Source: Gammaproteobacteria bacterium
GTDB taxonomy: Bacteria; Pseudomonadota; Gammaproteobacteria; Steroidobacterales; GCA-2729495
Assembly: GCA_024277915.1 (NCBI GenBank)
Contig: JAJRUG010000012.1
Coordinates: forward strand, 1 to 54,748
Length of the DNA: 54,748 nt
Reading direction: 5' to 3'
Part shown: positions 27,787-54,748 of the stretch, piece after piece
Numbering within the stretch: the stretch's first letter is position 1
Layout of the letters: every line of letters starts with the position of its first letter
Made by a program: the position numbers and the translations under genes
The notes under the pieces: generated by a model
What the model was told of the DNA's origin: nothing
The model's database searches: none
Seen by the model: only the letters and a program-made list of their open reading frames with translations

Positions 27787-27830
27787 TATTGGGGTATATT
27801 GCCCCAAATACAGCTATTTTTGGCTGTATT
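27773..27830 (+). promoter_or_regulatory. Promoter and hairpin upstream of the DUF5666 operon
   Basis: TTGACA (27773-27778) and TATATT (27795-27800) form a sigma-70 type promoter with a 16-base spacer at the end of the kinase gene. Just downstream, AATACAGC (27807-27814) and GCTGTATT (27823-27830) form an 8-bp inverted repeat inside the expected 5' leader, an operator or an mRNA hairpin ahead of the AGGAG that serves the next gene. Confidence 0.7.
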
Positions 27831-27845
27831 GATCAGGAGATGGGC

Positions 27846-30159: not shown

Positions 30160-30169
30160 GTGCAGAGCA

Positions 30170-31618
30170 ATGAACAAAATGCTGAGTTGTGTGATTGTCG
30201 CTGGTATGACTGTCAGCCTGCTGGCTGGCTGTGGCGGCGGTGGTGGCAGCGCGCAAATTGCCGGGATTGACAGGCTGGGAGTTTCCAGCGGAACGGTGAC
30301 CGGGTTTGGCAGCGTGTTCGTCAACGGCGTCGAGTTTGAGACCGACAATGCGGTATTTACTATCGACGGAGTGCCGGGTGTCGAAAGCGATCTGAATATC
30401 GGCCAGGTTGTGACTATTACGGGCAGCATTGATGTAAACGGGACAACAGGGACAGCCAACAGTGTTGTATTTGACGATGATGTTGAAGGGCCCATCAGCA
30501 GTATTGATCTCTCCGGCAATTCTTTCGTTGTTCTCGGGCAAACCGTACGGATAGATGGTGATACATCGTTTGATTCACAAATCACCCCGGCATCGGTAGC
30601 GGGTCTTTCTGTTGGTGAGGTTGTCGAGGTCAGCGGATTTGTTGATGGCAATATGGGGATTCGGGCTACCTATATCGAGCGCAAGGATGCGGGTAGTGAA
30701 TTCGAGCTGCAAGGTGTGGTCGATAGTCTGGATAGCGGTGCGAGCACTTTTCAGATCAATGGCTTCACTGTAGATTTCGCCAGCGCGATGCTCGACGGGT
30801 TTCCCTCAGGCATGATCAGTAATGGCGACAATGTTGAAGCCAAGGGTACGAGTTTCGGGGCTTCAGGTGAGCTGATTGCCAGCACAGTGGATTTCAAAGA
30901 TCAGGGGATTCCGGGTGCAGAGGGTGACGAGATTGAAATCGAGGGTTTTGTCACCCGCTTCGTATCCTTGACCGATTTCGATGTTTCCGGGGTGCCGGTT
31001 ACTACCAACGGACAAACGGAGTATTCGGGCGGACCATCCGCTTCACTTGCGCTGGATGTGAAAGTCGAAGTAGAGGGCATACTTTCCGCAAGCGGCGTCA
31101 TCGTCGCCGAGGAAATTGAATTTCGACCCGAAGCAGAGCTTCGCATCACGGCATTGGTGGATTCAGTAGACAGTGGCACAAATTCCCTGACCTTGCTGGG
31201 TGTCGCGATCCGCGTGAATCTGTTGACGCGGTTTGAGGACAACAGCTCCGCAGAGATCGCGCAGTTCTCACTGGCCAATGTGAATGCCGGTGAATACCTG
31301 ATCATTCGCGGGACCGGGGACACAACTGGTACTGCTGATGTGCTTGCGACATTGCTGGAGCGCGAAGATACCCCGGATCCACCGGTGGAGACTTCAATCC
31401 AGGGTTTTGTGACCGGGGTTGATAATCCGACACTCACTATCCTTGGTGTGACGATTGAAACCAGTGCCGGAACCGAGTTTGAAGACCAAAATGGAGATCC
31501 ACTGACTGCCGCAGAATTCTTCAACAGTGCTGTATCGGTGGATACCCTGATTGGAGCCAGCGGCGTTGAAAGTGACGGGCCGACTATTGTCGCTGATAAA
31601 GTGGAGATTGAGGATTAA
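30170..31618 (+). CDS. DUF5666 repeat lipoprotein, paralogue of the upstream gene
   Basis: A 482-residue lipoprotein with MNKMLSCVIVAGMTVSLLAGC as signal and lipobox. Repeat units such as GTVTGFGSVFVNGVEFETDN align with the protein at 27846-29309 over nearly the whole length, including shared GPISSID and SLDSGASTFQINGF-like segments, so this is an in-place duplication that has since diverged. ATG 30170 is preferred; the frame is open to 30146 without a better site. It converges on the potassium channel gene. Confidence 0.85.
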   Translation: MNKMLSCVIVAGMTVSLLAGCGGGGGSAQIAGIDRLGVSSGTVTGFGSVFVNGVEFETDNAVFTIDGVPGVESDLNIGQVVTITGSIDVNGTTGTANSVVFDDDVEGPISSIDLSGNSFVVLGQTVRIDGDTSFDSQITPASVAGLSVGEVVEVSGFVDGNMGIRATYIERKDAGSEFELQGVVDSLDSGASTFQINGFTVDFASAMLDGFPSGMISNGDNVEAKGTSFGASGELIASTVDFKDQGIPGAEGDEIEIEGFVTRFVSLTDFDVSGVPVTTNGQTEYSGGPSASLALDVKVEVEGILSASGVIVAEEIEFRPEAELRITALVDSVDSGTNSLTLLGVAIRVNLLTRFEDNSSAEIAQFSLANVNAGEYLIIRGTGDTTGTADVLATLLEREDTPDPPVETSIQGFVTGVDNPTLTILGVTIETSAGTEFEDQNGDPLTAAEFFNSAVSVDTLIGASGVESDGPTIVADKVEIED

Positions 31619-36057: not shown

Positions 36058-37101
36058 GTGAAACTGGGACTGATCGCCGGCTATTCGCCGGCCAAACTGA
36101 ATTTGCCCATGGAGCAGATTCTTGAGGCGGAACAACTGGGCTACGATTCTGTATGGACATCGGAAGCCTACGGGTCTGACGCTGTATCGCCGGCCGCCTG
36201 GATCCTGGCTCGCACCTCAACCATCAAAGTAGGTACCGCCATCATGCAGATGCCGGCACGTACTCCGACCTGTGCTGCAATGACGGCGATGACACTATCA
36301 GCATTATCCGGGAATCGGTTTTTGCTGGGTCTGGGGCCTTCCGGCCCCGGTGTTGTTGAAGGCTGGTACGGCGTGCCCTATGGTCGGCCGATGACCCGTA
36401 CCCGGGAATACATCGATATCATTCGTCAGGTGCTGGTTCGGGAAGCTCCCCTGGTACATAGCGGCCACCACTATCAGATTCCCTATTCGGGTGAAGATGC
36501 TACCGGTCTTGGGCGACCGATGAAAAGTATCCTGCATGGAGATCCGGGGCTAAAGATCTATACGGCATCCATAACACCCGCCGGCTTGCGGTGCAGTGCG
36601 GAGCTTGCCGATGGGGTATTTCCAATCTGGATGAATCCGGAACGTTTTGATTTGATTTCCGGGCCGCTCGAAGAAGGTTTCGCGAAGGCGGAGGGTGACA
36701 AGGGACTGTCGGATTTTGATGTCGCTCCCTTCATTCAGGTTTCAATGGGTGATGACCTTGATCGTTGTCGGCTGCCGATCAAGGCAAACATGGCACTGTA
36801 TATCGGTGGCATGGGCCCGAAGAGCAAGAATTTCTACAATGACTATGCCCGGCAGATGGGATACGAAGAAGCCGCAGAGAAAATTCAAACACTTTATTTA
36901 TCGGGCGAAAAGAAACAGGCGACGATGGCGGTGCCTGATCAGCTGGTTGATGATTGTGCGTTGGTGGGGCCTCCCGACCGGATCAGGGCTCGGCTCGCAG
37001 TATGGAAAGAAGCCGGCAACAGGGGGCAGGTGGGCTCTATGATGATTGGCGGAGCCTCGACTGAGGCGTTACGTTTGTTGGCTGAAGAGTTGCTGCCTTA
37101 A
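36058..37101 (+). CDS. LLM-class F420-dependent oxidoreductase
   Basis: A 347-residue TIM-barrel enzyme of the luciferase-like superfamily. The segments DSVWTSEAYGSDAVSPAAW, VGTAIMQMPARTPTCAAM and RFLLGLGPSGPGVVEGWYG are characteristic of F420-dependent LLM oxidoreductases, where a bulge after strand 3 contacts F420. It starts with GTG after CAGGGAA. It faces the F420 biosynthesis operon tail to tail, with a long inverted repeat in the 97-base gap. The substrate is unknown. With the coenzyme made next door this is the best candidate user of F420 in the window. Confidence 0.9.
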   Translation: MKLGLIAGYSPAKLNLPMEQILEAEQLGYDSVWTSEAYGSDAVSPAAWILARTSTIKVGTAIMQMPARTPTCAAMTAMTLSALSGNRFLLGLGPSGPGVVEGWYGVPYGRPMTRTREYIDIIRQVLVREAPLVHSGHHYQIPYSGEDATGLGRPMKSILHGDPGLKIYTASITPAGLRCSAELADGVFPIWMNPERFDLISGPLEEGFAKAEGDKGLSDFDVAPFIQVSMGDDLDRCRLPIKANMALYIGGMGPKSKNFYNDYARQMGYEEAAEKIQTLYLSGEKKQATMAVPDQLVDDCALVGPPDRIRARLAVWKEAGNRGQVGSMMIGGASTEALRLLAEELLP

Positions 37102-37147: not shown

Positions 37148-37234
37148 GGCATTGCCAGCCCGATCTCCTTTTGGTGGGATGGCTCCCTGCGGTCCGCTTT
37201 ATTCCCTCCAAAAGGAGATCGGGCTGGCAATGCC
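37148..37234. repeat. 27-bp perfect inverted repeat overlapping the 3' end of fbiC
   Basis: A 27-base arm (37148-37174) recurs as an exact reverse complement at 37208-37234 around a 33-base loop. Its right arm forms the last coding codons of fbiC (tail GIASPISFW). No T-run follows, so it is not a standard terminator, although it could stop convergent transcripts with Rho or protect mRNA ends. The form recalls REP/MITE hairpins; no second copy was noticed in the window. Confidence 0.75.
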
Positions 37235-39589
37235 TTGGTTCGCCGCAAGCGATTTTGCCTGATAGGACCGCGTCATCTGAGTATTGTTCGGGTTTCCGTA
37301 CAGCGTGCTTCGCTGGCGGGGCGTTCGATCGCACTCTGTAATGAGTTGATCCATTTTCGCCGGTGTCAGTTCCTGACCGTGATCGGCACCTGCAGCGCGG
37401 GAAATTGATTCATTCATCAGTGTGCCACCGAGATCATTGGCTCCCGCCGCAAGACAGGCACTGGCGCCAGCCTTGCCCAGCTTTACCCATGAAGTCTGAA
37501 TGTTGCTGATGACCGGGTTGAGTACCAGTCGTGCAACAGCATGCATGAGCAGGTTCTCACGCCAGGTCGGGCCGAGTCGTGCCTGGCCGCGGCGAAACAA
37601 TGGCGCTTCCATATGGATGAAAGGCAAGGGGACCAGTTCGGTGAACCCGCCGGTTTCGGACTGGAGGTCGCGAATGGCCAGCAAATGCCGGGCCCAGTGA
37701 ACAGGGGATTCCATGTGGCCGAACATGATGGTGGAGGTTGTTGGAATGCCCAGTGAGTGAGCAGTGCGCATGATATTCAGCCAGTCTGCAGTCATGACTT
37801 TATCCGCGCAGAGGGTTACCCGAATATCGTCATCGAGTATTTCAGCTGCAGTGCCGGGCAGGCTCGCCAGGCCAACTGACTTGAGCTCGGTCAGGAATGC
37901 CTTGTCTGAAAGCCCCAGGGTTGCAGCACCATGACTGACTTCCAGAGGAGAAAATGCATGTATATGAATATCAGGGGCAGCTTTCTTTACAGCCTGACAA
38001 ATATCCAGATAGGTCTGGCCGGTAAAGCTCGGGTGAATACCGCCTTGTAAACAGACTTCGGTAGCGCCCCGCTCCCAGGCTTCCTTTGAGCGCCGCCCGA
38101 TTTCTTCCATCTCCAGCAGGTAGGGTTTGCCCCGCAGGTTTTCGCTGGTCTTTCCTTTGGCGAATGCACAAAACTGGCATTTGTACCGGCAAATATTCGT
38201 GTAGTTGATATTGCGATTGACGACATAGGCAACAGAGTTGCCACAGGTGTCGATCCGGAGGCCATCAGCGATCGTGCAGACTGTTTCGAAATCCGGGCCT
38301 CTGGCATTGAACAGTCGTTCGATTTGCTGTTCGCCGAGACGTTCACCTGCCTGTGCCTGTTGCAGGATATCCGTCAGCTTGTTGTCACGAAGTATGCTTG
38401 ATGTACCGGATACGGTGAACGGCAGTCGGGCCGAAGAACCGGCCGCCCAGCTGTCACAGCGAGCATAGCCTTCCGCATCTGAATGTCTGAATAATTGTGG
38501 TCGTAATTTTTCGTGAACCCAATCGCCGGCGTCCCGAACGTAGTCAGGATAGAGCGTTAGCCTCTGCACCAGGGTTTTGCCTGCAGCCGCTGTCCGGGTG
38601 GCGAGTTTGTCGAGCTGCGGCCAGGGAGACTCGGGGTTGACATGATCCGGAGTGACCGGTGATACACCGCCCCAGTCATTAATACCGGCATTGATCAGCT
38701 CGCTGAGCCGGCCTGCGTTGAGGTTAGGCGGGGCTTGTATATTCATTTCGGAACCGAAGATGTGCCGGGCCATGGCAATCGTCCACAACAGTTCTTCGAA
38801 GGGTGGTTCCGGTACTGCGTGCATCAGCGTGGCGGGCTTGGGTACAAAGTTCTGAATAATAATTTCCTGCAGATGACCGAATTCGATATGCAGGTCTCTC
38901 AGTTTGATCAGGCTGTCGATGCGGTCAATTCGTGATTCGCCAATGCCGATCAGGATGCCGGTAGTCAGTGGTACTTTCGCGATGCCTGCATCCCGAATGG
39001 ACTGCAGTCTGACCACAGGATCTTTATCCGGTGAACCGAAATGTGCACCACCACGTTGAAGCAAGGCCGGTGATGTTGACTCCAGCATGATGCCCATGGA
39101 TGGCGCGACTTCGCGAAGGCTTCGGTAGTCATCAAGATCAAGCACGCCGGGATTCAGATGTGGCAGGAGGCCGGTTTCCCGATGCACCAGCGTCGCGACC
39201 TGCTTCAGGTAGCTGATTGTCGATTCATGCCCCAGAGCCTCAAGTGCCTCGCGAGCTGCCCGGTAGCGAAGTTCGGGTTTGTCTCCCAGGGTAAATAATG
39301 CCTCCCTGCAGCCGACCGCGAGCCCCGCCCGGGCGATTTCCAGAACCTGATCGGGTGACAGGAAAATATTATCAAGCTGACGGGGTGTTTTGGCATAGGT
39401 GCAGTAATGACAAACATCCCTGCACAGTTCGGTCAACGGGATAAACACCTTGCGGGAATAAGAGACAATCGCGCCCTTGCCCTCGTCTCTGATAGCTGCA
39501 GCCTCAAGTGTCAATTGCTCCAGAGAAGTGGATTGCCCCAATTCAATGGCAGTTTCCTGATCCAGTGCTGCGGTAGCCGGGTGTCTCAT
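37199..39589 (-). CDS. fbiC: FbiC: 7,8-didemethyl-8-hydroxy-5-deazariboflavin (F0) synthase, CofG-CofH fusion
   Basis: A 796-residue fusion of two radical-SAM domains. The N-terminal CofG half carries CRDVCHYCTYA (4Fe-4S ligands, CxxxCxxC) and the C-terminal CofH half CRYKCQFCAF. Together they build F0 from tyrosine and 5-amino-6-ribitylaminouracil, the first committed step to coenzyme F420. The fused form is typical of actinobacteria; archaea and cyanobacteria use two proteins. The end after RTPRQRSTLYG is longer than usual by about 30 residues, and its last part is encoded by a 27-bp inverted repeat. It overlaps cofC by 4 bases. Confidence 0.95.
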   Translation of the reverse strand: MRHPATAALDQETAIELGQSTSLEQLTLEAAAIRDEGKGAIVSYSRKVFIPLTELCRDVCHYCTYAKTPRQLDNIFLSPDQVLEIARAGLAVGCREALFTLGDKPELRYRAAREALEALGHESTISYLKQVATLVHRETGLLPHLNPGVLDLDDYRSLREVAPSMGIMLESTSPALLQRGGAHFGSPDKDPVVRLQSIRDAGIAKVPLTTGILIGIGESRIDRIDSLIKLRDLHIEFGHLQEIIIQNFVPKPATLMHAVPEPPFEELLWTIAMARHIFGSEMNIQAPPNLNAGRLSELINAGINDWGGVSPVTPDHVNPESPWPQLDKLATRTAAAGKTLVQRLTLYPDYVRDAGDWVHEKLRPQLFRHSDAEGYARCDSWAAGSSARLPFTVSGTSSILRDNKLTDILQQAQAGERLGEQQIERLFNARGPDFETVCTIADGLRIDTCGNSVAYVVNRNINYTNICRYKCQFCAFAKGKTSENLRGKPYLLEMEEIGRRSKEAWERGATEVCLQGGIHPSFTGQTYLDICQAVKKAAPDIHIHAFSPLEVSHGAATLGLSDKAFLTELKSVGLASLPGTAAEILDDDIRVTLCADKVMTADWLNIMRTAHSLGIPTTSTIMFGHMESPVHWARHLLAIRDLQSETGGFTELVPLPFIHMEAPLFRRGQARLGPTWRENLLMHAVARLVLNPVISNIQTSWVKLGKAGASACLAAGANDLGGTLMNESISRAAGADHGQELTPAKMDQLITECDRTPRQRSTLYGNPNNTQMTRSYQAKSLAANQGIASPISFWRE

Positions 39590-40254
39590 GCTACTGCTGC
39601 CTGTTCTTCGAGCCGCCGGGCAATTCCGGATTGTTCGACACAGGTTCGTGTATGTCCCGGTACCGGATTGGCGCAGAAACGGCGCAGATCATCCGGCGTA
39701 TCGATATCGTGGGAAAAAGCAGGGATGCTTATCTGCCTCGCTTTTATATTCAGCCCCGATGCGGCTTCCATATGCTTGCGTGCACTGTCAGCACCGAACT
39801 GAAAGGGCAGGGCATCAGCCGGATTAATGATCAGCGCGTTGGTGCCACCGTCGATTTCAGCGGGACAAATTACCAGGCCCTCCCGGTAACAATTCAGCAG
39901 CGTGACAATATCAGTGCTTTTTATCATTGGCAGATCACCATGGATGATGAAAAGATTTTCCACTCCTTCTGATCCGAGTTGTGCCGCTGCCCGGTTGAGT
40001 CCATCGCAGAGATTTGTGACGGGCTCTTCCCGAAGTACCCTGCAATCAAGTTCCTGTGCGATCCCGGTGACTCTGGCGTCGTTGCTGAACAGAACCACCT
40101 GACTGATTTGCGGCGTACTGGTCAGAGCAGTGAGTACATCGCGCAACATGCTTTCCGCCAGGGCGGCACATTCAGAAGTGCGCAGGATGGGCGCAAGCCG
40201 GGTTTTTGCCCGGGAAAGCTTTTTGATGGGCACTAGCGCGCAAAAATCGGTCAT
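39586..40254 (-). CDS. cofC: CofC: 2-phospholactate / phosphoenolpyruvate guanylyltransferase
   Basis: A 222-residue nucleotidyltransferase. VPIKKLSRAKTRLAPIL is the GTP-binding start of CofC/FbiD, FIIHGDLPMIKSTDI supplies the metal-binding Asp, and the DGGTNALIINPADALPFQFG segment is family-specific. It activates 2-phospholactate, phosphoenolpyruvate or 3-phosphoglycerate with GTP; which one cannot be read from sequence. ATGA overlaps on both sides tie it to fbiC and cofD. Confidence 0.93.
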   Translation of the reverse strand: MTDFCALVPIKKLSRAKTRLAPILRTSECAALAESMLRDVLTALTSTPQISQVVLFSNDARVTGIAQELDCRVLREEPVTNLCDGLNRAAAQLGSEGVENLFIIHGDLPMIKSTDIVTLLNCYREGLVICPAEIDGGTNALIINPADALPFQFGADSARKHMEAASGLNIKARQISIPAFSHDIDTPDDLRRFCANPVPGHTRTCVEQSGIARRLEEQAAVA

Positions 40255-41213
40255 CGGGCAGCCTTTGTTATAGAGTCAGCGAATTCAATCGCAAACCGGG
40301 CAAGTCGGGTTTTATCCTCAATTGACCGCATGACAGTCCGGGTGCTCATTACCGCCATTCCCTGGCCAGGCCTGAGCGCCTGGATTTCGTCTGAAAGCCC
40401 GCAGTCAACCGTATCCAGTATGAAGCCATCCAGCAGCTGTTGGTAGTGGCGGGCTACCGTGACAGCCGATGGTTGGTCACCCAGTTCAGTCATGATTTTT
40501 GCCGTCGGTCCCTTGATGGCTGCACCACCGACTATAGGGGAGATGGCCAGCACCGGTGCCGGGCTGTCTGATATTGCCTGGCAGATCGCTGGTATGGCAA
40601 GAATGGGGTCAATACTCAGGTACGGGTTTGATGGCGCCAGCACAATGGCCCTGAGCCCTGGATGTGCCAGCACTGCGCGGATTGCGGGGGACGGATCTGC
40701 TGTTTGCGCTCCGGAATAATGGAAACCCGAGACCCGGGGTTTCGCCTGTCTGCGAACAAAATAGTCCTGAAAATCCAGCTCACCCTGATCTGTCTGAATT
40801 CGTGTTCGAACCTTGTCATCGGTCATTGGCAGAATTCCGGACTCGATGCCAAACCGCTGGCATAGATCGACAGTGACATTCGAGAGTGTTGCCCCGGCCG
40901 AAAGACGTCGGGTACGTTCGATATGTGTGGCCAGGTCGCGGTCCCCGAGGCGGAACCAGGTTTCACCGCCCAGTGCCTCCACGGCATCCATGAATTGCCA
41001 GGATTCCTGTTTTCGACCCCAGCCGGTTTCCGGGTTGACCTCGCCTGACAGGGTATACATCAACGTATCGAGATCAGGGGAAATGCACAGGCCCAGGTGG
41101 GTGAAGTCATCGCCGGTATTCGCGATGACTGCAAGTTCTTCCGGTGGCATCACCTGACTCATGCCGAGTACCAGTTTCGCACCACCGACTCCCCCGGATA
41201 AAACAACAATCAT
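40251..41213 (-). CDS. cofD: CofD: phospholactate/PEP transferase forming (dehydro-)F420-0
   Basis: A 320-residue CofD/FbiA enzyme. MIVVLSGGVGGAKLVLGM is the typical start, IANTGDDFTHLGLCISPDLD follows, and SPIVGGAAIKGPTAKIM is also conserved. It transfers the GMP-activated phospho-acid from the CofC product onto F0, giving F420-0 or its dehydro form. The ATG at 41213 is used since the family starts at this MIVVLSGG and it overlaps the cofE stop codon by 4 bases; the frame is open 12 residues further. Confidence 0.95.
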   Translation of the reverse strand: MIVVLSGGVGGAKLVLGMSQVMPPEELAVIANTGDDFTHLGLCISPDLDTLMYTLSGEVNPETGWGRKQESWQFMDAVEALGGETWFRLGDRDLATHIERTRRLSAGATLSNVTVDLCQRFGIESGILPMTDDKVRTRIQTDQGELDFQDYFVRRQAKPRVSGFHYSGAQTADPSPAIRAVLAHPGLRAIVLAPSNPYLSIDPILAIPAICQAISDSPAPVLAISPIVGGAAIKGPTAKIMTELGDQPSAVTVARHYQQLLDGFILDTVDCGLSDEIQALRPGQGMAVMSTRTVMRSIEDKTRLARFAIEFADSITKAAR

Positions 41214-41968
41214 CGAAACAGATCGCCGGCTCTGGGGCGTTGCAAGCATCCTGCAGTCTGGTCGGAACCGGTGTTGGCGAGCCCTCTGATCAACACTACC
41301 GGGGTTGCCTCAGCGCCTTCGCCGATCAGCAGATTTGCTGCACTGGCAATACAATCCCCGGTTGCAGTTTCGCTGACCATAAGTGTTCGGCCAAACAAAT
41401 CTGTATTGCCACGGAGATCATCCAGCATGTTCACGCCGGAACAACCAATCGCAATGGCGGTAGTGCCGAGTCGCCAGGGGCGGCCGACGCTGTCCGAGAT
41501 CACGATACCGGGGAGCATGTCAAAATGTAATCCTAACGCCGTGCGAATGTTCTTTGCTGAGCGATCCGGATTTTCCGGAAGCAGCAGTACAATATTGTCA
41601 TCGCCTGCGACGTTCGAGTGATCAATGCCTGCATTGGCCAGGACGACCCCCAGCCGGTGCTCAACGATGATGACACCGGGGCTGGTACGAACCACTTCGC
41701 TGGACTCTCTGAGAATCAGCTCTACCAGCCGCGGATCCTTATCAACTTCAATCGCAAGTTTATTCGCCCGGGCAGAAGCCGTGATTTCATCAAGACTGAT
41801 CAGGCAACCCTCTGCCTTGGAGACTATTTTCTGTGCAATAACCAGTACATCACCATTGTGCAGCTCCAGTTCGGCGCGACCCAGCGCGGCGATGATGATT
41901 TCCGGCAAATCATCACCTGGTTCGATCATCGGGATCCCCGGAAGGGAGAACAAGGATAGTTGTGACAT
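41210..41968 (-). CDS. cofE: CofE: coenzyme F420-0 gamma-glutamyl ligase
   Basis: A 252-residue ligase. GDVLVIAQKIVSKAEGCLIS, VIIVEHRLGVVLANAGIDHS and VISDSVGRPWRLGTTAIAIG are CofE signatures. It adds one or more gamma-linked glutamates to F420-0 using GTP. It has only the CofE domain; the C-terminal reductase domain of actinobacterial FbiB is absent, so reduction of dehydro-F420-0 would need another enzyme if the PEP route is used. It follows npdG by 18 bases. Confidence 0.94.
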   Translation of the reverse strand: MSQLSLFSLPGIPMIEPGDDLPEIIIAALGRAELELHNGDVLVIAQKIVSKAEGCLISLDEITASARANKLAIEVDKDPRLVELILRESSEVVRTSPGVIIVEHRLGVVLANAGIDHSNVAGDDNIVLLLPENPDRSAKNIRTALGLHFDMLPGIVISDSVGRPWRLGTTAIAIGCSGVNMLDDLRGNTDLFGRTLMVSETATGDCIASAANLLIGEGAEATPVVLIRGLANTGSDQTAGCLQRPRAGDLFR

Positions 41969-41986
41969 CAGGCTGGCAGGCCAGGG

Positions 41987-42658
41987 TTATTCCGGAATTC
42001 CGGTAATCCTGATTCCGGCGTGCGGTGCGCCGTAACGTTTGTTGAGCAGGATCAATATCGAGGTGAGTGCTTCGGCAGCTGCTGCATTGTCGAGTGGGCC
42101 GGCGTGCCAGGCCCGGAACCCGGCTTGCTGTGCCAGCCCGATGACGATTTCCCTGGCGGCCACGACATCGCCGGTCACCAGTACATCACAATCTCCGTTC
42201 TCATCTGTGGCCAGAAGATCGGCGGCGACATTCTGAAAAGCGGAAACTACCGTGACCTCCTTGCCTAATGTGCGCTGGGTAATCACCGCAGCGCAGCCCT
42301 CTGGAGGCAGTTGTACCCGTGCTACTTTGGGCGGCACCAGCGGAACAGTGGTATCAATCAGGATTTTTCCGGCAACCCCCGGCTTGATTCGCTCGAGAAT
42401 CGCCGGATGGTGTGAAAAAGGCACTGTGATGACCACCAGGTCGCTTTCCTGCGCGGCTTCGAGGTTTTCTTTCCCGGATATTGCCGTGCCCGGCAGTTCC
42501 TTTAATAGCGCTGCTGCCGAACTGATCGCTTTATCAGGAGTGCGGGACCCGATAATGATGGTATAGCCGGCTTTTGCCCAGCGTCTGGCCAGCCCGCTGC
42601 CCAGTGCGCCCGTTCCGCCGATCAGGCTGATGGTTTTGATTTCTGATTTGATGTCCAT
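41987..42658 (-). CDS. npdG: F420H2:NADP+ oxidoreductase (Fno/NpdG)
   Basis: A 223-residue reductase: [20 protein letters not shown] is the NADPH-binding Rossmann loop, followed by [19 protein letters not shown] and [12 protein letters not shown], all features of Fno/NpdG. It passes hydride between NADPH and F420, providing reduced cofactor for the LLM and PPOX enzymes. It is first in the operon npdG-cofE-cofD-cofC-fbiC. Its ATG has no obvious ribosome-binding site, and a TAGAAT lies about 5 bases upstream on its strand, so the mRNA may be leaderless. Confidence 0.93.
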
Positions 42659-42747: not shown

Positions 42748-43110
42748 GTGGAAATATACAAGGAGTTCACATTCGAAGCGGCTCACAGGCTGCCTCGGGT
42801 TCCCCAGGGGCACAAGTGCAGTCGGCTGCATGGCCATTCATGGCGGGGGACAATCTATGTTGAGGGAAATGTTGATGAGACCACAGGGTGGATAATGGAC
42901 TATGCGGGGATCAAGAAGGCATTCCGACCCATTTACGATCAACTGGATCACTACTACCTGAACGATATCGAGGGTCTGGAGAATCCGACCAGTGAAGTGC
43001 TGGCAAAGTGGATCTGGGATCGTCTGAAGCCGGAGCTGCCGATGTTGTCACGTATTGTAATCAACGAAACCTGTACTACCGGTTGCATTTACCAGGGTGA
43101 GAATGCCTGA
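42748..43110 (+). CDS. queD: QueD-like 6-carboxy-5,6,7,8-tetrahydropterin synthase
   Basis: A 120-residue QueD/PTPS-family protein. [10 protein letters not shown] and CSRLHGHSW give the zinc-binding histidines and the catalytic Cys; LDHYYLN and [11 protein letters not shown] are conserved; INET supplies the pterin-binding Glu. QueD turns dihydroneopterin triphosphate into the 6-carboxypterin used for 7-deazaguanine (queuosine and deazapurine antibiotics). GTG at 42748 has AGGAG 7 bases upstream; the frame is open earlier without such a signal. It overlaps the deaminase start by 8 bases. QueC and QueE are not in the window. Confidence 0.93.
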
Positions 43111-43579
43111 TTCCGATCAAGATCATATGCGCGTTGCAATCGATATTGCGCGCCGTGGCTTTCTGGCAGGGGAGGCTCCGATTGGCGCTTGTCTGGTTCG
43201 GGACGGAGAAATTGTCGTTACCGGTCATAATGGAGTGATCGGAGATCTGGATATCACCGCCCATGCTGAAATAAGAGTTATGCGTGAAGCCTGTCGTGCG
43301 CTGCGCAAGCTGGATCTGGCCGGTTGCACGCTGGTCTCAACAGTTGAGCCCTGCTGCATGTGTCTGACAGCCAGCCACTATGCGCATATCGACCGGATCG
43401 TATTCGGTGCCAGCCTCGCCGATATTGATGCGGTGACTCACAATGAACTGTTACTTTCCCATCAGACGATACTGGCAGACTGTGATCGCAAGCCGGTAGT
43501 TCTCGGGGATGTGCTGGGAGATGAATGCAGGGCATTACTGAGGGAGTGGGCTGATCGGCGGCCTGGGCTGATTACCTGA
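43103..43579 (+). CDS. Nucleoside/nucleobase deaminase (CDA/TadA-like fold)
   Basis: A 158-residue zinc deaminase: HAEIRVM supplies the zinc-ligand His and the proton-shuttling Glu, and VEPCCMC the two cysteines. The total size and GASLADIDA segment resemble guanine or cytosine deaminases and tRNA adenosine deaminase more than cytidine deaminase. It is translationally coupled to queD (the ATG overlaps the queD stop by 8 bases), so it may act on the same purine or pterin pathway, or in the NRPS pathway that follows. The frame starts at 43097 with GTG; the ATG at 43103 better fits the AGGGTGAG site. Confidence 0.9.
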
Positions 43580-43589
43580 CCGGAAACCC

Positions 43590-44330
43590 ATGCCTTCCCA
43601 GTACGATCATATCGCAGACCTATACCAGCGCTCAAAAGAAACTCCGCTGCGGCGCTACGTTGAAGCCTGGTCATTTTTCAAGCTGATCGGTGATGTATCC
43701 GGCAAGTCGGTGCTGGATCTTGGCTGTGGTGAAGGGTTTTATACCAGGGAACTCAAACGTCGCGGTGCGGCGCGTGTTCTGGGGGTGGATATCTCTGCGA
43801 CAATGATTGAGATGGCGAAGCAGCAGGAAAATGAACACGCGCTCGGTATTGAATATGTGTGCAGCGATGTAAAAGAGATGCCGGATCCTGGCGAGTTTGA
43901 TCTGGTCGTTGCTGCTTATCTGTTGCATTACTCGGAATCTGTTGCAGATCTGTTAACCATGTGTCAGCAAATTCGCCGGAGTCTCGCCCGCGGCGGGCGG
44001 TTTATCGCCCTGAATGAGAATCCCGATCAACTGCCGGAACACTATTCGGGTTACGAGCAATATGGATTCGGCAAGAGTGCAGAGTTGCCGCATCAGGATG
44101 GTGCCGCGATTAACTACTGGATTGTTGCCGGTCGCGAAGTTTTCCGGTTCAGTGTTTGTCATTTTGATCGGGTGACCTATCAGAGGGCGCTTGGTCTGGC
44201 AGGCTTCGACGAGATCGTGTGGCAGCCACTCAGCCTGGATCCCCGGGGTGTTGAAAAACACGGTGAGGAGTACTGGCAGAAGTACCTCAATAATCCGCCG
44301 GTCACTGGTTTGACCAGCCGGGCCTGTTGA
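43590..44330 (+). CDS. Class I SAM-dependent methyltransferase
   Basis: A 246-residue methyltransferase with [20 protein letters not shown] (SAM loop), [11 protein letters not shown] and [11 protein letters not shown]. Its end ([20 protein letters not shown]) resembles small-molecule N- or C-methyltransferases. It lies 10 bases after the deaminase gene and 17 bases before the NRPS gene, so it is probably a tailoring enzyme of that pathway, acting on the peptide or a precursor. The substrate is not predictable. Confidence 0.9.
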
Positions 44331-44347
44331 CCGGGGCGTTATCGACC

Positions 44348-47300
44348 ATGATCTGCCTTCATCAACACGTCGAGCAACACGCCCGTTCAACACCAGACGC
44401 GGTGGCTGTTTCGTTTGGTGAGAGCCGGTTGAGTTATCGAATCCTGAATGGACAGGCCAACCAGTTCGCTCATTTGCTCGTTGAGGCGGGAGTCAAGCGG
44501 GGCAGCATGGTTGGTTTGTGCCTGGAACGGGGTCTGGAGCAGATCATTGCGCTGCTGGCTATTCACAAGGCGGGTGGCGCCTATGTTCCGCTGGATCCGG
44601 TTTATCCGACAGCTCGCTTGCAGCAGATGCTTGAGCAGGCACAGCCGGAAGTGGTGGTGACCAATCGACAACTGGCCAGGCTCGTGGCAGTTGATTCATC
44701 GACGATAGTTTATGTCGATGATGAGCAGTGTCCGATTGATAGCAATTGCATTGAGAACCCCGGTGTAGAACCAGCTGCGGATGATCTGTGTTACGTGATG
44801 TTTACTTCCGGGTCGACCGGCCGGCCGAAGGGAGTGATGGTGACCCATGGGAATGTAGCACGCTTGTTTGATACCTTGGGTGAAGAGCTCGGATTGACTG
44901 CGGATTATGCCTGGTCGCAGCTTCATTCAATTTCTTTCGGGTTTTCTGTCTGGGAGATATGGGGGGCTTTAATATACGGTGGGCGGTTAGTCATAGCACC
45001 GACCTATTGCCACGCTGACCCTGCCGCCATGTTCAGATTCCTGCAGGACGAACAAATTACCATCCTGAGCCAAACGCCCTCGGCATTTCGGCAAACTGTC
45101 CTGAGCGAAAACTTCGGCAATATCGAAGCGCTCTCTCACCTCGCGTCAATCATGCTCAGTGGTGATGCTGTTGTGGCAGAGGATCTTCAGTACTGGTTCA
45201 GAACAACACGCCATCCACGTTTGTTCAACAGCTATGCAATTACAGAAACAGCGGGGCAGATTGCCTGCCGTGAATTGAGTGATCAAAGCATGCACGCCGG
45301 CAACCTCGGCAAACCGTTGTCCGACACACGGGTGCTGGTTCTTGACGCGAATCGGGAACCGTTGCCGGCAGGTTCCACAGGTGAAATTTATATCGGAGGA
45401 CCCGGCGTAGCGCTTGGGTACATCAACGATCCGGAGCAGACCCGGCAATGTTTCATTGACTTGAGTATTGATGGCGAAGGTAAGCAGCGGTTTTATCGCA
45501 CCGGTGACCGGGCTCGTCAATTGCCCGGTGGCGAGCTTGAATTTGCCGGTCGGCAGGACAGCCAGTTCAAGCTGAATGGTTATCGCATCGAGCCTGGTGA
45601 TGTCGAATCAATGCTGCGCACCCACTCTGATGTAACTGATGTTGTGGTGACAGTCGCCCTGACTCCGGATGGTGTTTCGAAGCTGACCGGCTACATCGTT
45701 TCAAGTGATCCTGTCGAGATCTGGCCGTCTCTGGGCGGGTACCAGGTATACGATGAGTTTCTTTACGACCTGATGGTTGCCGAAACCGGGCGGAACACAA
45801 GTTACCAGGCAGCATTTAATCAGCTGGTCAAAGACAAGACAGTGCTGGATATCGGCACGGGTCAGCATGCGTTGCTGGCGCGCATGTGCATCGAGGCCGG
45901 AGCAAGGAAGGTCTATGCCATTGAGGTCATCAAGGAGGCTTGTGACAAAGCCCGGGCGCTGGTTCAGGAACTGGGCCTGGAAGACAGGATCATTGTGGTG
46001 CACGGTGATGCACGAACGGTTGAGCTTCCGGAACAGGCGGATATTTGTACCCAGGGCATCATCGGGAATATCGGTAGTGCTGACGGCATCGTTCCAATCT
46101 GGAACGGAGCACAGCATCTGCTGAAAAATGACTGTATTGCTGTTCCCTCAAAATGTACGACGATGATCGCAGCGGTCGAGTTGCCTGATGATTTGCGGCA
46201 GCTGCCGGTTTTCAGTGATCTTGCGACAACCTATGTTGAAAAAATGTTTGCCTCAGCTGGCCGGCAATTTGATACTCGGTTATGTTTGCGAAATCTTCCG
46301 CTATCACAACTTTTATCGGAGCCGCGGGTTTTTGAGGAACTGGATTTCTCTGCAGCACTTGATGATGAAGTCCGGGGCGAAGACTCTTTCCTGATACGCC
46401 GCGATGGACGGCTGGACGGGTTTCTGCTCTGGACAGTTGTGACGACGGTTGAAGGAGAGACTGTTGATTACCTGAAGCAGCAACAGGCATGGTTGCCGGT
46501 ATTTTTTCCGATCTGTGACAGGGGCGCGGCTGTTGCTGCGGGTGATCTGTTGTCGGCAAACTGGAATACCCGTGTCACTTCAGGTGAAATCTGCCCGGAC
46601 TATTCCATCACTGCAGCACTGGGGCAGCAGAAGTTTTTCTATACGACACAGCACCGGGAAACTGCGCTCAACAGTACGGAGATCCATCGGCAGTTGCTGG
46701 CTGCCATGGACAAGACCGGGCGCTCGTCACCTGGCAGTGATTTGCGTGCATGGCTGAGCGAGCGTCTTCCAGAGTACATGGTGCCTTCGGCCTGGGTATT
46801 TCTGGATCATCTTCCGCTGACTCCGAACGGCAAGCTGGATCGCAGCGCATTGCCTGCACCGGGGAATGCGCGTTTCGGGGTGGCGGCTGAGTATGTCGCA
46901 CCGCGAACTGCTCTTGAGAGTGAGCTTGCCGGGGTCTGGTCGGCAGTGCTGGGCGTTGAGCTGGTTGGTATCCACGACAATTTTTTTGATCTGGGTGGCG
47001 ATTCCATCAGCGCGGTTCGATTGACCAGCGACATGCAGCGTTTGTTGAATGACGACGTAACGCTGGTTGCACTGTTTGACTCGCCCACTATTGCCGGGTT
47101 TTCGGGGTATTTGCAGCAGCATCACCGCACTGCCGTCGCAGCCATCGAGCCGGATCAGCCACTGGCACTGTCCCGGGCGCAGCAAGGGTTCTGGTATCTG
47201 AATGCAATGACTGATGGACAGTCCGGAGCAAATGAACAATTTGTTATTCGACTCCGTGGCACCCTGGATGAAACTGCGTTCGAGAAATCCTGGAACACTG

Positions 47301-50300
47301 TTCTGGAACGACATGAGTCCCTGCGAACGGTTTTTAAGGAACAGGATGGTGAACCCTGTTGCATCATTAAAGCATTTGATGCTGTGCCCCTTGAGATTGC
47401 GTTGCATCAGTCGCTGGATGCTGCCGCCGAAGCAGCGATTCTCGAACCATTTAACCTGACCACCGGGCCGTTGATCAAAGCACAGTTGATCAGACAGTCG
47501 GAAAATGATCATGCATTCATCGTGACCGCACACCACATGATTGCCGACGGGCTGTCGGTGCGCATTATTTTTGATGAGCTGGTTTCTTTCTATCGGGGAG
47601 AGAGAAAAATAGCAGACCCGGTACAGTACTCTGAATTTGTTGCCCGACAACATGCGGCGCTCAGCGATCAGGCACTACAGAGCCGGCTTCAGTACTGGCG
47701 CGAGACGCTGGAGGGTTTGCCCGGAGAAGTCATGCTGCCGGGCAAGCAGCAACAGGATACTCCAGGGTTGCAGCGGCGGATCTGTTTTGAAATCAATGCA
47801 CAGACTGCAATCGGGCTGCGGAGTCTGGCCAGACGCTCGGGCGCTACTCTATATATGACCCTGCTGGCTGCGTTTCGGGTATTGCTGGCCCGGTATTCGA
47901 ATCAGGATGATATTGCGATCGGTTCTCCCGTGACCAACCGGGATGCTCCGGAGTACCAGGGCATGGTGGGTTGTTTGGTCAACAATGTTGTATTGCGTAA
48001 CCTGACAGCAGGCGACCCGGTGTTCACGGAGTTGCTTCAAAAAGAACGACAGGTAATTCTTGAGGCGATAGAACATCGTGATGTGCCATTTGAAAAGATC
48101 GTACAGGCGCTGAATCCCGACCGGCGTTCGGGGAAACATCCGTTATTCCAGATTCTGTTTCTGTTTGAATCAGGTCACGGTTCAGAGCAATCTGCCGGTG
48201 GTCTGTCATTCAGTTTTTCTGAAACGTATGTTGACCGGGTTTCGTATTGGGATCTTGAATGTTCAGTCACTGATCATGGTCCGGATCAGCCTTTGTCCGG
48301 TTTCATCGGCTATGCGGAAGCATTATTTGAGGACTGGTTTGCCGAGGCGATTCCGGGGCACTTCAGTGCGTTGCTGGCGGATATTGTCAGGGATGCAGGG
48401 CGACCGGTTTCGAGCCTGTCGATACTGCCGGAGGCGGAGTATCACCGCATGGTGGTGGAGTGGAATAATACTCAGGCGGCTTATCCCGATCAGCAGACGT
48501 TGCATGGACTTTTCGAGCAGCAGGTTCGTCGCACACCCCAGGCCTGTGCCGTGGTGTGTGGCGAGGAGCATTGGAACTACGATGAGTTGAACCGCCGGGC
48601 CAACCGGCTGGCGCGTTACCTGCAAAAACTGGATGTTAACCCGGGTGATTTTGTGGGTATTGCGCTGGGACGAACCAGCGATATGGTGGCGGCAGTACTC
48701 GGAGTGCTCAAGGCGGGTGCCGCCTATGTTCCGCTGGATCCGACCTGGCCGGTTGCACGACGCAAATTCATGCTGGAGGATTCCGGTGTGACTGTGCTGG
48801 TTACCGAGTCGCTGATTGATTCGATGCCTGATCATCCCGGCTTGTGCCTGGATATTGGAGCTACCGTACATCCGGATAATCCGGCCTGTCTTTTGTATAC
48901 ATCCGGTTCTACCGGGCAGCCAAAGGCGGCAATCGGCTTGCATCGTGGTGCTGTGAATCGCTGCCACTGGATGTGGGAACGCTACGACTTTGGTTCCGGC
49001 GATGTATTCGCACAGCGTACCAGCCTGAACTTTGTTGATTCTGTTTGGGAAATATTCGGGGCGCTGATGCATGGTGTGCCTTTGATCATGATTCCCGATC
49101 AGCATGATCTGCCGGCATTGCTGAGGTTGATCTCAAAGCATGGGGTGACGCATCTGGTGATGGTGCCATCGATGTTGCAGGCGGTTCTGGAATTGTCCGG
49201 TGCATCTGATTGGAAACTCAGGCAGGTTTGCACGTGGATCAGCAGTGGCGAACCACTGCCGCTGGCACTGGTTGAAAAATTTCACCAGCTGCTACCCGGG
49301 GCGCGATTGCTGAATACTTATGGGACTTCCGAAATCTGGGATGCTGCCTGCTTTGATGCTTGCGACCTGCTTGAAACACATCAACGGGTACCAATAGGAA
49401 AGCCGATCGCCAACGTCCAGACCTATGTACTTGATAGTGGACTGCAACCGGTTCCAGCCGGTGTAACAGGCGAGCTATATGTTGCGGGCACTGGTCTGGG
49501 TTCAGGTTACTGGCGTCGCCCGGAACTGACTCAGGAACGATTCCTTGCCAATCCTTTTGACGGCACAACCGGGTCACGACTATATCGAACCGGTGATCTG
49601 GCCCGCTATCTGCCGGATGGCTCACTGGAATGCATGGGGCGACGCGATCAACAGGTCAAGATTCGTGGTGTCAGGGTAGAGCCCGGCGAAATTGAGGCGG
49701 CGTTGTGTCGGGATGAGAATGTATCCAATGCAGCAGTGGCACTGCGGGTCGATACTGCGGGTGAGTCACAGCTGGTTGCCTGGGTGACCGGAACAGGTTT
49801 GTCAAAACCGGTTGTCATTCAGTTACGGGCTGATTTGAAAAGTATGTTGCCTGCAGTGATGTTACCCGTGTCCATCACCATCGTTGACTCTTTTCCACTC
49901 ACGCCAACAGGAAAGACAGACAGGAAAGCCCTGTTGGCGATTGATGAAGACCTGCCGGGCGGTTCACCGGGTATCGGGCCACGCACTGAAACCGAGCATG
50001 TGATCGCAGCGCTATGGCATGAGTTTCTGAACAGTGACTCATCGGACAGTGTGTTGAATGTATTCGATGATTTTTTCGAGTCCGGCGGCCATTCGTTGCT
50101 GGCGATCCGGCTGGTGAACCGCGTTGCAGGGCAATTTCAGGTTGCTCTTGCCCTGGCAAAGTTTTTTGCTGCCCCAACGATTGCGGCACTGGCATCACAG
50201 GTCGATGCAATGCTCGCTGCCAGTGAATCTGTTCCATCAGATATCGGGCCGGTCGCTATTGAGCGAACTGGTGACTGCGAGTTGTCGTTTGGCCAGGAAA

Positions 50301-53300
50301 GACTGTGGTTTCTGGATCAACTTGATCCGGGCAGTCCCGCCTATTCAATCGCGTGGCCGATCAGGCTGGCAGGGTCGTTGGATCTTGTTGCCTTACAGGG
50401 CGCCATCAATGCATTGGTGGCACGCCATGAATCGCTCCGAACGATATTTTTACCACAGCAGGGGAAACCGCAGCAGCATATCGCCGAACATCTGACCATC
50501 CCCGTCGTTGTTGAAGATCATACCGATTGTTCCGACGCTGCACTGAAAAAACGCTGTGTCGAGTTGGCAAGACAGCCGTTCAGGCTTGATGCCGGCCCCC
50601 TGCTGCGTCTGACGCTGCTCAAAACAGGCGTGGATGAACACCTGTTGTTTATCGTGATTCATCACATTATTACCGATGGTGAATCCAATGCGATTTTCTT
50701 CCGGGAACTGACCCTGCTGTACCAGAGTATCGCTGCCGGGCTCGATCCGTCCTTGCCTGATCTGCCCTGCCGGTATTCTGACTATGCGGCATGGCAAAAG
50801 CAGTGGCTGAAAAATGATCGCATCAAGGAACAGATGGGCTACTGGGTAAAGCAGTTGTCCGGTGCGCCCGCAGCACTCGAATTACCAACCGACTATCCCC
50901 GGCCACAGGAGCAACAATTCAGAGGTGCCTGGGTATGGCGCACAGAAACCCGCGCTTGTGCCGAGTTATTGGCGACACTCGGCAGAGAATCCGGATGTAC
51001 CTTGTTCATGGTGATGCTGGCAGTGTTTAACGTGTTGCTGCAGCGCTATTCACGCCAGGACGATTTACTGGTCGGCACGCCGGTCGGTGGCAGGGTGCAT
51101 GGTTCAGTCGAGGGATTAATCGGTCTGTTCGTCAACACGGTTGTATTGCGCACTGATCTGTCCGGGAACCCTTCTTTTAATGAACTCTTGCAGCGTATCC
51201 GGCCGATGGCGATGGATGCCTGGGCAAACCAGGAGCTGCCGTTTGAAAAGCTGGTGGATCAGCTCGCTCCTGACCGGACGCTCAGCCATGCGCCGGTATT
51301 CCAGGTGATGTTTAACCTGATGCAGTTCAGTGATCGTCAAATCACTGCCGGAGGAGTTGATTTTGAAGTGCAGCGGCTCGAGGACCATGGGGTATCGAGT
51401 TTCGACCTGACGCTGTCCGTGGGCGAGCATGCCGACGGGCTGGAACTGATTTTCGAATATGACCGTGACCTGTTTGACGAGGCAAGCATTATCAGTCTGG
51501 CGGATCATTACCAGACCCTGCTTGCGGAAGTGATCAGTAACCCGGAACGGCGTTTGTCTGAACTGCCTTTGACGACCGAAGAATATGATCAGCAACTGCT
51601 ATGCCGGTGGAATGATCCGGAGACAGACAGTGTTGCTGATGGGTCAGTAGTCGAACTGTTCACACAACAGGCAACGCGCCGGCCTGATGCCGAAGCGATT
51701 GTTTTCGGGCAACAACGGATGAGCTATCGGGCACTTGATCAACAGTCGAACCGGCTGGCGCACCATCTGATCACGCTTGGTGTGGGTGCGGGGGTTCGGG
51801 TTGGCCTGTGTCTGGAGCGCTCAGCCGAATTGCTGGTGGGTATTCTGGCAGTACTCAAGGCAGGTGGTGCTTATGTGCCGATGGATCCTGAATATCCTGC
51901 CGGTCGACTGGGGTTGATGATCCATGATGCAGGGGTTCGGGTGCTCTTGACCCGTTCAGAGTTCACTACAGTGAATGGCGGGGAAACAGTCAGTCGCGTT
52001 GATCTCGATACTATCGAATTACTGCTCGATAAATATCCGGCGAACACGCCGCAGCAACCGGCCAGTGAAGATGATCTGGCTTATGTGATTTATACCTCCG
52101 GTTCTACGGGTCAGCCCAAGGGTGTCATGGTGACCCGGGGCAATCTGTTCAGTATTTATTGTGCCTGGGAAATAGCCTATGAGCTGCTGCCGGGAGAAAA
52201 TCATCTGCAAATGGCCGGTGCCTGTTTCGATGTATTCACCGGTGATTGGGTAAGGGCGCTTTGTTCCGGTGCACGGCTGGTCGTGTGTCCACAGGCAGTG
52301 CTGCTCGAACCCCGATCTCTGCATGAGCTGATCAGAGAGGAGGATATTCATGTTGCCGAGTTTGTGCCGGCGGTGATTCGGCCGCTGATCGAGTACATGA
52401 AATTGGCTCGCGCTGATCTCGACACCATGCGATTGATCATTGTCGGCTCGGATACATGGCATGTCAGTGAGTACCACGAACTTTCCGGGTATTGTCGAGT
52501 CGATGCACGGGTCATCAACTCCTATGGCACTGCCGAGTCGACGATAGACAGCAGCTGGTTCGAAGCAACGATCACATCACAAGCGCACAGCCGGATACCG
52601 ATCGGGCGGCCCTTTGCGAATGCCCGCTTTTATGTGCTCGACCCGAACCTGCGGCCGGTTCCGACGAGCCTGCCGGGCGAGTTGTATATCGGTGGACGGG
52701 GGGTAGCACGCGGGTACCTGAATGACGAAGGGGTTAAAAACGGTTTCTGCGCGGATCCGTTTAGCAAACAACCCCGTGCCCGGATGTACGCAACCGGCGA
52801 CTGTGTGAAGTTCAGGCCGGATGGCAATTTCGAATTGCTGGGTCGTCTGGACGGGCAAATCAATATTCGCGGCTTCCGTATCGAACCAGCCGAAATCGAG
52901 GCTGTGTTGTATCAGCTTGATGAAGTTTCGGATGCAGTGGTTACCGCATGCGATGGTGAACGGCTGGCTGCTTATCTTGTCGCGGCTGGCCAACACGTGA
53001 TTGATACGTCCCGGGTTATTAACACGCTGAAGTCCACGTTGCCCGCTTATATGGTACCCGCAGCGATTGTAGTGATGGAGGCGTTACCGCTGACGCCGAA
53101 TGGCAAGCTGGACCGGAATGCCCTGCCGGCGCCGGACTGGAATGAAAATGCCGGCGCATCATATATACCGCCGCGCACACCGCTGGAGCATTCCCTGTGC
53201 GGACTGTTTTGTGAAATTCTCGAAATTGATTCGGTCGGGATTCACACCGGCTTTTTTGAGTCGGGTGGTCATTCCCTGATGGCGGTAAGACTGGTGTCGA

Positions 53301-54748
53301 GGATTCGTGATGCGCTGGATGTCGAACTATCACTGCGCAGTTTGTTCGAGCATCCTACTGTTGCAGGTGTGGTGGCTGAGCTTGCAGGTAGTGAAGACAC
53401 GCCTGTTTTGCCTTTGCAAAAAACATCCCGGTGCAGGGAAGCAGTGATACCTGCTTCGTGGTCCCAGCAACGGCTTTGGTTCCTTGATCAACTTGAGCCG
53501 GGTGGCTCAGCCTATACCTTGCATTGGGTATCCCGGCTGCGCGGTTCCCTGAATATCCAGGCGCTGGAGCGGGCAGTGACGGTCCTGGTTCAACGCCACG
53601 AAGTATTACGCACGGTATTTTCTTCCAGGGCCGGTATGCCGGTTCAGGTGATACTGGATACGCCATCGATTGCAGTGAATGTAGAGGTGTTTGAGGGGCC
53701 AGATCAGCTGACCAGGCTGATAGCGCTGCCCTTTGATCTTCGCAGTGGCCCGTTGCTGCGGGTACATGTTCTGCGCGTATCCACTGTAGAGCAGGTGTTG
53801 TTGCTGGCGATGCATCATATTATTTCTGATGGCTGGTCGATGTCGATACTGTTGCACGAATTGAGCAGCGGCTATAACGCATTTGCCCGGGGTAAGTTGC
53901 CAGACTTTGCTTCCCTGCCTGTGCAGTTTGCAGACTATGCGGTCTGGCAACAGGCACGAATGGCCGCTGGCGAATTACAGCACCAGGTTGAATTCTGGCA
54001 GCAACGCCTTGAGGGTGCACCGCCGTTGTTGAACCTGCCTGTTGATCGTCCGCGTCCTGTTGTTCAGAGCGGTGCAGGTGCCTGGCATAGTGAAACCCTG
54101 CCGATTGATCTGGCAGAAAAACTGACGTCGCTGGGTCGGTCGCGGCAGTGCACCCTTTTCATGGTCCTGCTGGCAGCCTTTGATGTGCTGCTGGCCCGGC
54201 ACAGTGGCGAGCTGGATATTGTTGTGGGGACGCCGGTGGCCGGTCGTAACCAAACCGGGCTTGAAGGGCTGATTGGTTTTTTCATTAACACACTGGTGCT
54301 GCGCAATGACCTTACGGGCAACCCGCGGTTTGACGAGTTACTTGAGAGGGTCAAACACACCGCACTGAAAGCCTATGCCCACCAGGACCTGCCGTTTGAG
54401 AAACTAGTGGAGGTGGTACGGCCACAGCGAAGCCGAAGCTATCAGCCTGTTGTTCAGGTGATGTTTAATTTGCACAATGAACCGGGTCCGGTGTGTTCTT
54501 TTGAGGACGTCGAGGCGGTCATGGAGGCCGTTGCGGGGGATAGTGCCAAGTTCGATCTGAGTCTGCATGTTGCATCGCAGGCAGAAACATTGATCGTTGC
54601 ATTCGCCTACAACAAGGACTTATTTGATGCGGTGACGATCGAGGCGATGTCGGGCCAGTATGTGCGGTTGCTGGAGTCGGTAGTATCGGCACCGGAGACG
54701 CGGATCGCTTCGTTGAGTTTGCTCGACGGGGTCAGTGAAGGCGAGCAG
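44348..54748 (+). CDS. Nonribosomal peptide synthetase, A-MT-T-C-A-T-C-A-T-C, running off the window
   Basis: One frame stays open for 3,467 codons from ATG 44348 to the edge. A1 starts at once (no C domain: initiation module), interrupted between motifs A8 and A9 by a methyltransferase. T1 has LGGDS (Ser886). C1 has HHMIADG (from residue 1062), A2 about 1380-1860, T2 ESGGHS (Ser1916), C2 HHIITDG (2105), A3 about 2430-2920, T3 ESGGHS (Ser2976), C3 HHIISDG (3156) and is cut. Pocket residues, read by eye against GrsA: A1 G-F-W-S-M-S-S-G-Q (no Asp at the amino-binding site, Gly198), A2 V-D-W-V-I-S-T-D-A (beta-alanine-like), A3 D-V-G-E-I-G-S-I-D (ornithine code). Peptide and release domain unknown. 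Confidence 0.95.
45715..46660 (+). other. Methyltransferase domain inserted in the first A domain, PRMT-like fold
   Basis: Residues about 456-771 of the NRPS. Between [16 protein letters not shown] (A8) and [11 protein letters not shown] (A9) lies [20 protein letters not shown], then VYAIEV and [20 protein letters not shown], which follow the order of protein arginine methyltransferases rather than the usual NRPS N-methyltransferase. A C-terminal part ([30 protein letters not shown]) corresponds to the PRMT beta barrel. The double-Glu loop that grips arginine in true PRMTs reads [13 protein letters not shown], so the substrate is likely different. Domain borders are approximate. Confidence 0.75.

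Follow-up and report, generated by a model that had tools for sequence, protein, structure and literature searches.

The first adenylation domain (A1) of an NRPS encoded at the end of the window, i.e., the whole 54,748-nucleotide stretch that was analysed, is interrupted by a methyltransferase domain that, at the level of sequence, is demonstrably related to the protein arginine methyltransferases (PRMTs). Three features of this system are new: the clamp glutamates of the methyltransferase are replaced, Asp235 is lost in a threonine-derived A domain, and the operon is divergent from the coenzyme F420 genes family-wide. Tentatively, and with a confidence that falls a little short of even, the loading module is proposed to activate a small acid without an alpha-amine, which the embedded domain would methylate, probably on oxygen. 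The features of the locus are collected in Table 1.

Table 1. Position of the NRPS domains, diagnostic motifs and neighbouring genes in the window
Feature	Position	Strand	Evidence
F420 genes cofGH, cofC, cofD, cofE, npdG	37199..42658	-	TIGR03550/03551, 03552, 01819, 01916, 01915 above cut-offs
TadA-like zinc deaminase	43097..43579	+	PF00383 2.6e-24; in 21/21 loci
Free methyltransferase, overlaps NRPS start	43590..44330	+	PF13649 7.2e-23; in 21/21 loci
NRPS, A1(MT)-T-C-A-T-C-A-T-C	44327..54748	+	Open at contig end; ORF and domain search
A1 core (A1-A8), threonine-type ancestry	44348..45691	+	TIGR01733 400 bits
Gly codon at PheA Asp235 position (FGFSVWE)	44939..44941	+	Gly in 30/30 family members
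Inserted PRMT-like methyltransferase domain	45692..46735	+	Profile, homology and tree evidence
SAM motif I (VLDIGTGQ..., 14 residues)	45842..45883	+	Asp, Gly invariant in 27 members
Altered double-E loop (12 residues; PRMT/OMT: SE..G.....E)	46052..46087	+	Alignment
C-terminal barrel-like part, QAWLPVFFP replacing THW region	46124..46666	+	Alignment; predicted strands
A9-A10 with catalytic Lys	46754..46843	+	Lys in 30/30 family members
T1 carrier domain, Ser intact	46922..47113	+	PF00550 3.1e-13
Module 2 C-A-T, pocket VDWVISTWD, presumably beta-alanine-like	47159..50104	+	
Module 3 C-A-T, pocket DVGEIGSID, ornithine	50282..53284	+	

Module layout of the NRPS

The start codon is either TTG 44327, which overlaps the stop codon of the preceding gene, or the in-frame ATG 44348, and the reading frame runs for 3474 codons without a stop up to the contig end. 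The domain search of the window NRPS found no C domain upstream of A1, and module 1 is therefore read as a loading module. The T1 motif lies at 46976, with the serine conserved in all 28 family members in which T1 is present. By the A-domain code tables, the pocket of module 2 is presumably beta-alanine-like. For module 3, the A-domain code DVGEIGSIDK corresponds to ornithine (PMC3992020).

In the relatives, complete NRPS lines mostly comprise 5-6 modules, the last domain being a T domain, and those of loci L043-L058 leave no room for a fused thioesterase after it. In two later modules of these lines the pockets DAQHVGG and DAMHVGG recur, which match no A-domain code known to us. In one genome (G005), a C-A stretch is found on the opposite strand.

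A PRMT-like domain between A8 and A9

The insert comprises about 350 residues, at about residues 456-803 of the NRPS. An A8 motif of 11 residues is located at 45569 and a 13-residue motif of the insert at 45716; LPEYMVP (A9) at 46766 and TPNGKLDR (A10) at 46820 come after it, followed by the T domain. Since A8 precedes and A9/A10 follow the methyltransferase, the insertion is assigned to the A8-A9 junction, and the arrangement is that of an NRPS interrupted A domain, with an auxiliary domain set between the core motifs of a single A domain.

The relationship with PRMTs is apparent from the comparison with solved structures. When the single insert sequence is used (phmmer), PRMTs account for all of the best 60 PDB matches listed, the best being PRMT6 (E-value 1.6e-16). 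The 27-member family profile gives a best value of 1.2e-23, again with only PRMTs among the 60 matches listed, over a match that spans positions 16-253 of 328 and leaves the domain end and the later barrel part uncovered. The HGDA motif of the inserted domain lies at 46001. The original prediction, which had described an A domain interrupted by a PRMT-like methyltransferase of a type other than the common NRPS one, is thus confirmed, including the position given for the insert. A standard NRPS N-methyltransferase was considered and rejected, as PF08242 gives no match and 5wmm, an interrupted A-NMT, is absent among the PDB matches listed.

The proposed Pfam comparison was only partly informative. 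The PRMT5 model does match the insert, but at 18.0 bits, below its cut-off of 22.9, while the generic Methyltransf_18 and Methyltransf_25 models pass; consequently, Pfam alone would not call the insert a PRMT. Across the whole genome of origin, PRMT5 finds no match above threshold.

As for the barrel-like C-terminal part also predicted, a barrel is likely according to structural modelling, although the model itself is of low confidence. AlphaFold, run on a three-sequence alignment of the insert, gives a Rossmann part followed by eight C-terminal strands at a mean pLDDT of 46.7, and the 50 best Foldseek matches of this model are all PRMTs, with TM-scores of about 0.35. Because of these low values, the predicted barrel is regarded as topological support only. 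The model of the whole A1-MT-T segment (three sequences) was poor, with a pLDDT of 40.5, and was left out of the conclusions.

Distribution and known relatives

The interrupted module occurs in 36 of the 40 sampled genomes of the family to which the window belongs, which rules out chance or an assembly artefact. Among 59 other genomes of the order it was found in none, and only two weak free-standing PRMT-like proteins were detected there. Just three further close relatives (G273, G583 and G504) emerged from 369 class and 398 phylum genomes, one in a KR-containing PKS/NRPS module and the other two encoded by ORFs of their own within NRPS loci. In the tree, the MT domains of the family form one clade (support 100/100), placed beside the NRPS O-methyltransferases (OMTs) and separate from the free-standing PRMT-like proteins.

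The original view that few NRPS A domains carry such an insertion needs correcting: this kind of domain is already known in A domains, namely in LynB3, in HcaA/VatN and in cryptophycin- and didemnin-type NRPSs. The search for other NRPSs with the same insertion was also successful, the best plasmid matches being those of Tistrella mobilis pTM3 (didemnin locus, L079) and Nostoc ATCC 53789 (cryptophycin CrpC type, L080). Both interrupt their A domains where the window MT does, and show full-length homology to it at 40-43% identity. The pockets neighbouring the Tistrella domain are presumably those of Leu, Pro and Tyr, which fits didemnin, and the PKS-NRPS-SDR gene order of the Nostoc locus fits cryptophycin. 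Didemnin and cryptophycin both contain O-methyltyrosine. In contrast to the window's family, which shows neither feature, the MTs of L079 and L080 keep the SE...E clamp and sit in Tyr-like A domains with Asp235.

LynB3-OMT is described as showing about 30% similarity to arginine methyltransferases (PMC10127204), HcaA and VatN have OMT domains that fall into one clade (PMC10949194), and the LynB3 and HcaA OMTs are assigned to phenolic O-methylation (PMC10127204, PMC10949194). Compared by description only, LynB3-OMT resembles the window domain as an arginine-methyltransferase-like MT inside an NRPS module, and HcaA-MT1 and VatN-OMT as same-clade OMTs inside cyanobacterial interrupted A domains. 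These three belong to Tyr modules and are followed by an N-MT, whereas the window MT has no such partner and its loading module lacks Asp235. No description of a clamp-less domain of this kind in a putatively non-amino loading module, constant across a family and tied to F420 genes, was found in the open-access literature, which is weak evidence of novelty.

The glutamate clamp loop

The clamp columns read as S-E-x8-E in PRMTs correspond to Q-G-x8-D in the window's family. The double-Glu arginine clamp that marks a protein arginine methyltransferase is therefore missing from the window domain, as had been predicted. In the family alignment Q is present in 30/30 members, Gly replaces Glu144 in 29/30 and Asp replaces Glu153 in 29/30, and new invariant N and S residues appear between Q-G and D (30 members). 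The loop has thus been changed and then held constant. PRMT6 and CARM1, the closest solved structures by sequence profile among the PDB matches listed, are free enzymes with a double-Glu clamp, a THW loop and peptide arginine substrates, whereas the window domain is embedded and clamp-less.

The missing clamp had been taken as a sign that the fold is reused for another nucleophile. This interpretation is not supported, since both glutamates are kept in all five aligned OMT relatives and, by eye, in a sixth; the conserved SE...E loop of these PRMT-like OMTs is replaced by QG...D in 29/30 members of the window's family. As judged from the alignment, the loss of the glutamates came as an additional change confined to this family, and the acceptor and the chemistry may consequently differ from those of the OMTs. 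Embedded PRMT-like OMTs with and without the glutamate pair offer a natural comparison for the role that these residues play with acceptors other than arginine.

The loop also bears on two further possibilities. PRMT ancestry would agree with a domain that N-methylates the guanidine group of an arginine-like starter, but both guanidine-binding glutamates are absent and the A1 pocket is small and threonine-derived; arginine methylation is rejected on these grounds as highly improbable. Loss of both clamp glutamates might instead reflect a catalytically dead domain kept as a structural part. This is considered very unlikely: although the MT domains of the family are often only about 50% identical to one another, neither the SAM motif residues nor the loop residues Q, N and S vary among them, which indicates strong selection on the active-site loop.

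Substrate pocket of A1 and proposed function

The A1 pocket, mapped by motif and not by structure, reads G-F-W-S-M-S-S-G-Q. In a search of 299 phylum genomes, the A domains closest to A1 carry threonine-type pockets of the DFWNIGMVH type. Asp235 is present in all of the dozen nearest threonine-type domains examined, so its loss in A1 is a derived change; compared with these relatives, A1 is also altered at N278, G301, M322, V330 and H331. The Asp235-to-Gly change, like the family-wide link with F420, had escaped the original prediction. Replacement of Asp235 is tied to A domains for alpha-hydroxy acids (Gly in EnSynA1) and alpha-keto acids (PMC11253843). A1 shares the change to a small or aliphatic residue, Gly in 30/30 members, with EnSynA1 of enniatin synthetase and with StsA. 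The substrates of these two are other, and keto-acid depsipeptide modules such as StsA use a ketoreductase where the window module has an MT. The A5 motif in the family's A1 is YA[IVL]TE, and StsA also lacks the A5 proline (PMC11253843); this motif weighs little, because threonine-type domains already carry Ile or Val there.

The catalytic residues are intact, the domain shares common descent with the NRPS OMT domains, and pocket and clamp loop are both changed. From this pattern we infer the substrate class, oxygen as the nucleophile and the timing of methylation. A1 would adenylate a small carboxylic acid that lacks the alpha-amino group (alpha-hydroxy or alpha-keto) and load it onto T1, and the embedded domain would then move the SAM methyl onto the tethered acid, most likely onto a hydroxyl oxygen, as do cis-OMTs. 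The methylated starter would pass to the beta-alanine-like and then to the ornithine module, resulting in a capped, non-amino starter. The non-amino starter is suggested by the constant absence of Asp235, as in hydroxy- and keto-acid A domains; O-methylation is suggested because the MTs of 40-43% identity serve didemnin- and cryptophycin-type NRPSs and the LynB3 and HcaA OMTs are those assigned to phenolic O-methylation. Conservation of the SAM motifs, the A10 Lys and the T Ser, together with the fully supported MT clade, favours the loading-module reading. Loss of Asp235 does not prove a non-amino substrate, since McyG has Val at this position, yet was crystallised as a Phe-activating A domain (PMC11253843).

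An unlikely alternative is that the substrate of A1 is an amino acid after all, ordinary or aminated in its side chain, in spite of Gly235, and that the embedded domain O-methylates a side-chain hydroxyl. Threonine-type ancestry and the precedents of side-chain OMTs would agree with this, but all threonine-pocket residues are changed except Phe236 and Trp/Phe239, and Asp235 is invariably Gly. As far as its description in PMC10127204 goes, ColG offers such a precedent, an interrupted A domain whose embedded MT acts on a side-chain oxygen (Ser O-methylation); it has two MT domains, A1 one.

The main chemical rival to O-methylation is C-methylation of a keto acid, in which the starter would be an alpha-keto acid methylated at the beta-carbon via the enol, with the QG/D loop serving enolisation. 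Gly235 fits keto acids, and the loss of Glu144 and the Asp at Glu153 (29/30) also speak for this route, but every close relative to which a role has been assigned is an O-methyltransferase and the C-methyltransferase profiles find nothing outside the SAM motifs, making C-methylation quite unlikely.

Genomic context and coenzyme F420

The F420 gene set is complete in the window and divergent from the NRPS operon. The order deaminase-methyltransferase-NRPS is preserved in all 21 loci checked. In 19 of them, within the limits of the stretch available, npdG-cofE-cofD-cofC-cofGH adjoin the operon divergently; G023 makes a twentieth genome, with cofG about 14 kb from the NRPS on a shared contig. The module is missing from four family genomes, three of which also lack cofG above cut-off, although some of these genomes are incomplete. 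Other families of the order carry cofG without the NRPS, and F420 thus does not require it. The open-access papers searched contained nothing relevant on NRPSs linked to F420 in Gammaproteobacteria.

NRPS clusters usually have a patchy distribution, which makes a family-wide NRPS locked to F420 genes unusual and points to a core rather than an accessory metabolite. The paired change of the A1 pocket and the MT loop suggests joint evolution of activation and methylation. Taken further, and as a rather doubtful extension, this near-universal F420-linked pathway may have given a PRMT-derived domain a new methyl acceptor in step with its A domain giving up threonine for a non-amino acid, yielding a conserved metabolite specific to the family, perhaps an essential one, that relies on F420 or acts together with it.

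The TadA-like deaminase, always upstream of the free methyltransferase and the NRPS, scores 89 bits against a TadA cut-off of 150. A luciferase-like monooxygenase at 36058-37101 passes the F420-dependent Rv3520c model TIGR03559 and is a possible F420 user near the cluster; a second lies at 11846-12883. By eye, GTP cyclohydrolase I directly follows the NRPS in five genomes (G003, G010, G013, G017 and G030), and a heme/siroheme block (hemL, hemB, hemC, hemA-like, cysG) is seen further downstream in many family members. Elsewhere in the window, two repeated-DUF5666 proteins (27789-29309 and 30146-31618) flank a DUF6502 protein.
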